A stretch of DNA of 64,000 nucleotides from Roseibacillus sp. (GTDB lineage Bacteria > Verrucomicrobiota > Verrucomicrobiia > Verrucomicrobiales > Akkermansiaceae): contig NZAC01000038.1 of the NCBI GenBank assembly GCA_002686085.1, positions 1 to 64,000 on the forward strand, in the 5' to 3' direction. Of the stretch, positions 1,430 to 3,281 are shown in pieces (position 1 is the stretch's first letter; every line of letters starts with the position of its first letter). The notes beneath the pieces are model-generated. The model was not told the DNA's origin. It searched no databases and saw only the letters and a list, made by a program, of their open reading frames with translations. Position numbers and translations under genes: made by a program.

Positions 1430-1475
1430 TTGTGACGGATTTGTCACCAAGCTCCCTTTGTGACATTCGCGTCAA
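1430..1475 (+). promoter_or_regulatory. Pho-box-like double direct repeat
   Basis: Two pairs of 7-base direct repeats each have the 4-base spacer typical of PhoB boxes. The first pair is TTGTGAC (1430-1436) and TTGTCAC (1441-1447). The second is TTGTGAC (1458-1464) and GCGTCAA (1469-1475). The known PhoB half-site is CTGTCAT-like with an 11-base period. The site ends 18 bases before the ATG of the Na/phosphate cotransporter gene, which is the kind of gene PhoB controls. Regulation by phosphate starvation is inferred. Confidence 0.5.
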
Positions 1476-1493: not shown

Positions 1494-3281
1494 ATGGTTA
1501 CCTTCTTAGAGATCCTCGGGAGTCTTGGTGTTTTCTTGTTTGGCATGAAAGTCCTGAGTGAGGGCACTCAGAAGGTCGCCGGTCAACGCATGCGCCACGT
1601 CATGGCCACCATGACGAAGAATCGGGCGTCTGGAGTTGCTACCGGTTTCGGAGTCACCTGTCTCCTGCAGTCGTCGTCCGCCACCACTGTCATTGTGGTT
1701 TCTTTCGTGAACGTGGGCCTCCTCACGCTCATCGAGTCAATCGGTGTCATCATGGGTGCCAACCTTGGAACGACCGTTACCGCCTGGATCATCGCGGCGG
1801 TAGGTAAATTCAGCCTCGCAAAGATCGCCATTCCGATCATCGGAATTGGCCTTCCGTTCATTTTCATCAGCAAGGGCCGTGCCAAGGGCTGGGGCGAAGT
1901 GATGATCGGCTTCGGCCTTCTTTTCTTCGGTCTCGGCCTCCTTAAAGACAATGTTCCGGACGTGAAGGGGATGCTTGCGAGCGAGGACGCCGACGTGAAG
2001 GCCCAGGCAGAGGCCGTCCTCGAATTCATCAAGAGCCTCAGTGGCAAGGGCTATCTCTCCTACCTCCTTTTTCTGGTCCTCGGGGTGGTTCTCACCCTGA
2101 TGGTGCAATCATCGTCCGCCGCCATGGCGATCACCGTGACCCTCGCGATGAACGGGTGGATTGGATTCGAGGAATCAGCCTTTGTTGTGCTGGGCGAGAA
2201 CATTGGAACTACGGTCACGGCCTGGCTGGCCTCGCTCGGGGCCAATCATCATGCCAAGCGCGCGGCGCGAGCCCACTTCATGTTCAATGTTCTCGGCGTC
2301 ATCTGGATGCTGATCCTCTTCGTTCCCTTCAAGGAACTTGTGTTATGGATATCGGGGGGCCTTCCCGAGTCGTTCCGAATGGAGAAGCACAATACCGACG
2401 TTGGCTTCAATCTCGCCATCTTCCACACCCTTTTCAACTTCACCAATATCTGTCTTCTGATCGGGTTCGTTCCGTTCATTGAGAAGATCGTCACAAATTG
2501 GGTCAAGGAACCTGCCTCAACCGGCCGCCGCGAGCGCCTCACCTTCATCACTCAGGGCATGGTCAACACCGGGGAGCTCAATCTGCCGGAGGCGGAGAAA
2601 GCCACCGTCGAGCTGGCCAAGCTCACCCAGGACATGTTCGATGGCTTCGTTGAAGTCTTCAACAATCCCAAACAAGACCTCTCTGAAAAGGTAAACAGTC
2701 TCCATGAAATGGAGGACGAGGCCGACGAACGCACTGCTGACATCACCGAATATCTGGTGCGCTGTGCCTCGGCCGAGATCGGTCAATCAAACGCCACCGG
2801 GGTGGCTCAGATGATCCGGATCGTCTCTGAACTGGAGGAGATTTCAGACACGATCTACCGTCTCGTAAAACTCACGCAGCGTAAGTACAAGAAGGAGCGG
2901 GAATTCACCTCGGAAGCTACCGAGGGCCTGCGCGATTACGCACAACTCATTGCGCGGTTCATCACTGTCTACAATGAGAAGATGTTTCAACCAATTGACC
3001 GGAAGGAAATTGATGCAGCACGCACCCTCGAGAATGAGATCGGATCACGCGGCAAGTCTCTCAACAAGCTGGCCTTGGGTCGGATGGCAATGCCGGAACC
3101 TGACATCAAGGCTGAAATCCTTAATATGGAGCTCAACAACCACTGCGAGAAGATCGGGAACCACGGTTTCAACGTGATGCAATGCCTCTACACGATGGCT
3201 AACAAGGAGGAAGCTCCCGATAATATTGCGCAACCGATCGATCAGATTATCGATGATAAAAGAGACCAGCCCGAAGGGTAA
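1494..3281 (+). CDS. Na/phosphate cotransporter family protein with PhoU-like C-terminal domain
   Basis: A secondary transporter predicted to import inorganic phosphate with sodium across the inner membrane. It shows the two inverted QSSSA signatures of the Na/Pi cotransporter (PF02690) family, near residues 59-63 (QSSSATT) and about 205 (QSSSAAM). Each lies in a hydrophobic segment, within an eight-or-so-helix membrane domain to about residue 335. The remaining ~260 residues are a soluble helical region of PhoU type. The length of 595 fits the family's long form. The upstream Pho-box-like repeats suggest induction by phosphate limitation. No pst or phoB genes are in the window. The downstream sulfatase begins 34 bases later and may be cotranscribed. 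Confidence 0.93.
   Translation: MVTFLEILGSLGVFLFGMKVLSEGTQKVAGQRMRHVMATMTKNRASGVATGFGVTCLLQSSSATTVIVVSFVNVGLLTLIESIGVIMGANLGTTVTAWIIAAVGKFSLAKIAIPIIGIGLPFIFISKGRAKGWGEVMIGFGLLFFGLGLLKDNVPDVKGMLASEDADVKAQAEAVLEFIKSLSGKGYLSYLLFLVLGVVLTLMVQSSSAAMAITVTLAMNGWIGFEESAFVVLGENIGTTVTAWLASLGANHHAKRAARAHFMFNVLGVIWMLILFVPFKELVLWISGGLPESFRMEKHNTDVGFNLAIFHTLFNFTNICLLIGFVPFIEKIVTNWVKEPASTGRRERLTFITQGMVNTGELNLPEAEKATVELAKLTQDMFDGFVEVFNNPKQDLSEKVNSLHEMEDEADERTADITEYLVRCASAEIGQSNATGVAQMIRIVSELEEISDTIYRLVKLTQRKYKKEREFTSEATEGLRDYAQLIARFITVYNEKMFQPIDRKEIDAARTLENEIGSRGKSLNKLALGRMAMPEPDIKAEILNMELNNHCEKIGNHGFNVMQCLYTMANKEEAPDNIAQPIDQIIDDKRDQPEG

Follow-up and report, generated by a model that had tools for sequence, protein, structure and literature searches.

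The window, a 64,000-nucleotide stretch of Roseibacillus sp. DNA (contig NZAC01000038.1), carries near its start a forward-strand gene (1494..3281) for a 595-amino-acid Na/Pi symporter with a C-terminal PhoU domain. The protein contains Na_Pi_cotrans repeats, scores 229.3 bits against TIGR00704 (cut-off 210.1) and exceeds the cut-offs of PF02690 and PF01895, which places it among the NptA-like transporters and bears out the phosphate-related role that a preliminary description of this DNA had given the gene. Transport is presumably directed inward. The gene is patchily distributed, being present in 6 of 14 sampled congeners, some of them incomplete drafts. Upstream of the symporter, a divergent gene (78-920) encodes a short RpoD/RpoS-like sigma factor of 280 amino acids.

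Two paired motifs precede the symporter gene, exactly where they had been described. Box 1 (1430-1447) consists of TTGTGAC (1430-1436), GGAT (1437-1440) and TTGTCAC (1441-1447); its core, GTGAC-N6-GTCAC (1432-1447), forms a perfect dyad whose half-sites are spaced by 11 bp. Box 2 (1458-1475), 28 bp downstream of box 1, consists of TTGTGAC (1458-1464), ATTC (1465-1468) and GCGTCAA (1469-1475), and is separated from the ATG at 1494 by 18 bases (1476-1493), as previously noted. With a matrix trained on phoB upstream regions, box 1 scored 24.2 bits and box 2 11.5 bits, the latter deviating from the box 1 pattern at three positions and from GTGAC-N6-GTCAC at one. Box 1 is kept in congeners and in distant orthologues. 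In the congener G003 (L006), whose symporter is 95% identical, both half-sites of box 1 are intact and box 2 has decayed, so that box 2 is possibly accessory or a chance match; the proposed double site thus holds for the strong box 1, and we do not retain "double" as a firm feature. In another relative, G011 (L005), the box before the Na/Pi gene has a partly repeated copy that is interrupted by a scaffold gap (a run of N).

Counting the motif within the genome itself had no power as a test and was abandoned. The window holds 6 matches to a TTGTSAC-type pair at up to 3 mismatches, compared with 3.9 expected, and box 1 is the one place in the 3.95-Mb genome where TTGTSAC-N4-TTGTSAC occurs exactly. 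With as many as two mismatches allowed, this pattern was not in excess genome-wide (55 matches versus 50 for the reversed pattern), nor was TGTGAC-N6-GTCACA at two mismatches (60 versus 67). Sequence alone therefore provides no evidence here, and the claim is carried by comparative data.

Unsupervised expectation-maximization (EM) on the phoB upstream regions of relatives returned TGTGACGAATTCGTCACA, of the form TGTGAC-N6-GTCACA, with a log-likelihood of 184 compared to 56-60 in six shuffled sets. It was assigned in 22 of the 24 regions, marginally in two of these (L099, 9.8; L111, 8.3); the 24 were drawn from 30 loci after near-duplicates (L086-L090, L107) were left out. The resulting matrix, which had no Na/Pi gene in its training set, reached at least 12 bits upstream of 44 of 75 Na/Pi-symporter genes, compared to 0/523 coding windows, 6/1500 Markov shuffles and 0/75 for the reversed matrix. 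These 75 came from 80 loci, five of which were left out for a gene start near a contig end (L171, L173, L191, L194, L211). The 31/75 regions lacking a site of at least 12 bits, which count against a general association, include, with the exception of L150, every region labelled Opitutia or Opitutales. Upstream of PstS-family genes (400 bp), 21 of 30 regions scored at least 9 bits and 16 of 30 at least 14 bits. The EM model also served for the PstS scoring, the column comparison below and the scores of sites in the genome of the window; because it was trained on phoB regions, the phoB scores are not independent, whereas those for Na/Pi and PstS genes are.

The enrichment at other phosphate genes, whose absence had been named as a refutation, was sought in relatives and found, favouring a link to phosphate. 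Across 93 genomes of the order Verrucomicrobiales, exact TGTGAC-N6-GTCACA occurs at 79 sites in 49 genomes, while a reversed control pattern gave 14 sites, 10 of them in a single genome, and the same half-sites with an N7 spacer gave 12 sites in 11 genomes. The reversed control in question, ACACTG-N6-CAGTGT, was counted 10 times in G034 and almost nowhere else, and there is probably a repeated element. A phosphate gene lies within 260 bp downstream of 26 of 71 distinct N6 sites, compared to 0 of 12 N7 sites, of which 3 have any open reading frame (ORF) within that distance. The 71 are the distinct sites examined among the 79; outside them fell four other listed sites, three of which had already been recognised at pstS or Na/Pi genes, and the few that the listing did not give. 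By Pfam name, the genes behind N6 sites include Na_Pi_cotrans, PBP_like_2 (PstS), PHO4 (PiT), PhoU, PhoU_div and phosphate-selective porin O/P, and phoB is also among the phosphate genes behind the 26; the BLAST references used for neighbouring genes include Pfam-named proteins first met beside such sites, and self-matches occur. That the motif precedes phoB-phoR in the genome of the window and phoB, pstS, PiT, PhoU and porin genes in relatives upholds the earlier description of a Pho-type site.

Counting against this, 45 of the 71 sites adjoin no recognised phosphate gene; some of these may be chance occurrences and some new regulon members. Perfect boxes in relatives lie near genes for ShlB/FhaC two-partner secretion (L258, L294, L315), DUF3450 proteins (L257, L295), PycTM (Pycsar-effector domain) proteins (L299, L302) and FG-GAP-repeat proteins (L273, L288, L289), which are candidates for additional regulon members or for chance neighbours. 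Within the same family, genus g3 has a variant such as TGTGAACAAATCGTCACA at 5 of 7 phoB loci (present at L225-L229, absent at L110 and L232). No conserved counterpart was found at 11 phoB-like loci belonging to the class's other orders, where L248 (15.1 bits) and L238 (11.9 bits) have matches at other distances, nor at 8 loci from other classes.

GTGAC and GTCAC are reverse complements, so box 1 can be read as a near-direct repeat as well as a perfect inverted one. A pattern that leaves the centre base open (GTSAC-N6-GTSAC) matched 43 inverted, 7 direct (5 CC and 2 GG) and 0 everted sites in 124 upstream regions, counts that include related loci and so are not all independent. The spacing expected of a Pho box was confirmed, with 50 pairs at a gap of 6 and 0 to 4 pairs for every one of the 15 remaining gaps in the range 0-15. 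Direct pairing of the two half-sites gave column divergences of 0.16, 0.66 and 0.18 at columns 1, 4 and 7, compared to at most 0.02 under inverted pairing, for sites chosen by a symmetrised matrix that itself favours symmetry. The orientation count and the column comparison used 74 Na/Pi loci (the near-duplicate L146 was also left out), together with 26 and 25, respectively, of the 30 PstS loci, all 30 of which had entered the scoring. Given 43 inverted versus 7 direct sites, the conserved unit is YGTCACA in inverted orientation, with 11 bp, or one helical turn, between half-site centres. The direct repeat of the preliminary description is therefore probably wrong, and we rejected the canonical reading on this count. 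The box shares with canonical Pho boxes the phosphate genes and phoB downstream and the 11-bp (7-4-7) spacing, but it is not a direct repeat and is accordingly filed as a dyad-symmetric variant.

The best PhoB-like regulator of the genome is encoded at C10:20792-21499 and followed by a PhoR-like kinase frame; a box, TTGTGACAATTTCGTTAC (C10:21522-21539; 22.2 bits), lies 22 bases before its start codon. The protein combines receiver and winged-helix domains, has the PhoR-like kinase as its neighbour and is linked to phosphate genes in relatives, and on these grounds we class it as PhoB; it matches two-domain regulators over its full length and PhoB structures domain by domain. Counting against this, it scores 222.3 bits against TIGR02154, below the cut-off of 296.2, which is passed in 2 of 14 control genomes. 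A single in-frame stop codon interrupts the phoR frame (L073:5546-6790 on C10, minus strand); it likewise counts against the operator reading and is either an assembly error or a real nonsense change, and the frame is open in five congeners (L086, L087, L088, L090, L091). The Na/Pi gene of the relative G023 immediately precedes phoB.

The proposed motif search of the genome thus recovered the phoB site, while PstS and PstB were themselves not found in this 96% complete assembly: no PstS-family protein was detected and no PstB over the cut-off, a match that all 14 control genomes give. The Na/Pi symporter may therefore be the main phosphate importer of the genome, as far as these two components were searched. 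Judged by site sequence, phoBR and the symporter gene appear to be its two clear box targets. Among the matches listed, which were inspected in about 245 kb of selected and partly overlapping loci, no other site of at least 11 bits was both strong and next to a phosphate gene, and the next best lay inside an ORF (17.6 bits) and in an intergenic region with no ORF near (16.2 bits).

Conserved in sequence, spacing and symmetry and associated with phosphate genes, the box is well supported as an element of phosphate control. We take it, with a probability of roughly 80%, to be an order-specific, dyad-symmetric Pho box, that is, a Verrucomicrobiales phosphate-starvation operator that is bound by PhoB and activates the Na/Pi symporter gene. 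When phosphate is scarce, PhoR would phosphorylate PhoB, which would then bind TGTGAC-N6-GTCACA as a symmetric dimer and switch on the symporter gene. PhoB would also act on its own phoBR operon in autoregulation and, in relatives, on the genes for pstS, PiT, PhoU and phosphate porins. PhoB is the most economical candidate for the binder, since the box stands before phoB, the half-site is PhoB-like and the Na/Pi gene directly precedes phoB in G023; the box would accordingly be expected to respond to phosphate. The proposal of activation rather than repression draws on two parallels, the PhoPR-dependent NptA of S. aureus and the known Pho regulons. Two further results count against the proposed operator: a search of 1280-1520 found no sigma-70-like promoter, and no constant distance between box and -10 element was seen over 100 sites. 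It is also rather more likely than not that the PhoB of Verrucomicrobiales has one half-site turned, binding as a head-to-head dimer to an inverted repeat of TGTCA-type half-sites at the usual 11 bp, with an order-wide regulon in which phosphate-selective porins stand beside Na/Pi and PiT transporters and, possibly, proteins of two-partner secretion.

PhoB might instead bind as in a classical Pho box, as a head-to-tail dimer on a 7-4-7 direct repeat, with the dyad reflecting tolerance at one base. The 11-bp distance known from Pho boxes and the 7 direct-type sites among 50 would fit, as would the published members of the family, mostly on direct repeats in the excerpts available (PMC3960148, PMC3333781). 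We nevertheless consider it unlikely, as in 43 of the 50 sites the first half-site carries G and the second C, and columns 1, 4 and 7 of sites chosen by the symmetrised matrix differ under direct pairing but hardly under inverted pairing. A different regulator that binds dyads, such as one of CRP/FNR or GntR type, could control the phosphate genes including phoBR. Such a protein would account for the near-perfect dyad and for two relatives, G008 and G017, that have boxes at pstS (20.3 and 24.4 bits) and in which searches and a tree found no PhoB orthologue, a result that counts against PhoB as the binder and comes from drafts (G008, 290 contigs, 96% complete; G017, 69% complete). However, the box precedes phoB in most relatives and is lost before the phoB-like genes of the class's other orders, YGTCAC at 11-bp spacing resembles PhoB half-sites including, in the portion of the source available, the D. 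vulgaris box (PMC3333781), and no rival regulator has so far been linked to it; we regard this explanation as quite improbable. A functionless chance resemblance would agree with the lack of a genome-wide motif excess, but is contradicted by conservation across species and by prediction from one gene to another, and we give it hardly any weight.

For an abundant, little-studied order to which relatives of Akkermansia belong, a dyad-symmetric Pho box provides a candidate operator of phosphate control, and its matrix can be used to find the regulon of the order. If PhoB is the binder, this would be a natural case of a PhoB-family regulator that exchanged tandem for dyad recognition while keeping its half-site spacing, and would bear on how dimers of the OmpR/PhoB family choose DNA geometry. 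Among the titles and opening parts of abstracts listed for open-access PMC articles that pair Verrucomicrobia or Akkermansia with PhoB, Pho regulon or Pho box, none describes such a box.

The closest published relative that we found, in the excerpt of its source available, is the box of D. vulgaris PhoB (DVU1083), which likewise stands before pst genes and has (c/t)GT(n)AC half-sites with a short spacer; as presented there it is a direct repeat with an open centre base, whereas here, in another phylum, the centre and flanking bases form a dyad (PMC3333781). The same excerpt gives CTGTCAT-N4-CTGTCAT as the E. coli-type consensus, with which the Verrucomicrobiales box shares the 7-4-7 arrangement, the 11-bp distance, TGTCA-like half-sites and a position upstream of phosphate genes, but the E. 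coli box is direct and this one inverted (PMC3333781). OmpR-family regulators on inverted repeats are known and, in the portions of the sources available, described as a minority: HP1043 (PMC3960148) and AgrR, CopR and PcoR (PMC7380067). In the AgrR box (ATKACANNNNTGTMAT) the spacer measures 4 bp, and an additional direct half-site sometimes lies close by; according to the same partial account the AgrR, CopR and PcoR sites resemble the Pho variant in being inverted repeats for OmpR-family regulators, but differ in serving metal regulation, in the half-site ATTACA and in lineage (PMC7380067). For the transporter, the available part of one report describes S. aureus NptA as a Na/Pi importer with a PhoU domain that depends on PhoPR and rises as phosphate falls, a likeness from another phylum that covers the transporter and its control but not the regulatory site (PMC13170248). 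In the same part, the NptA-like YjbB is insufficient for import in E. coli (PMC13170248), so import by the symporter described here is putative.
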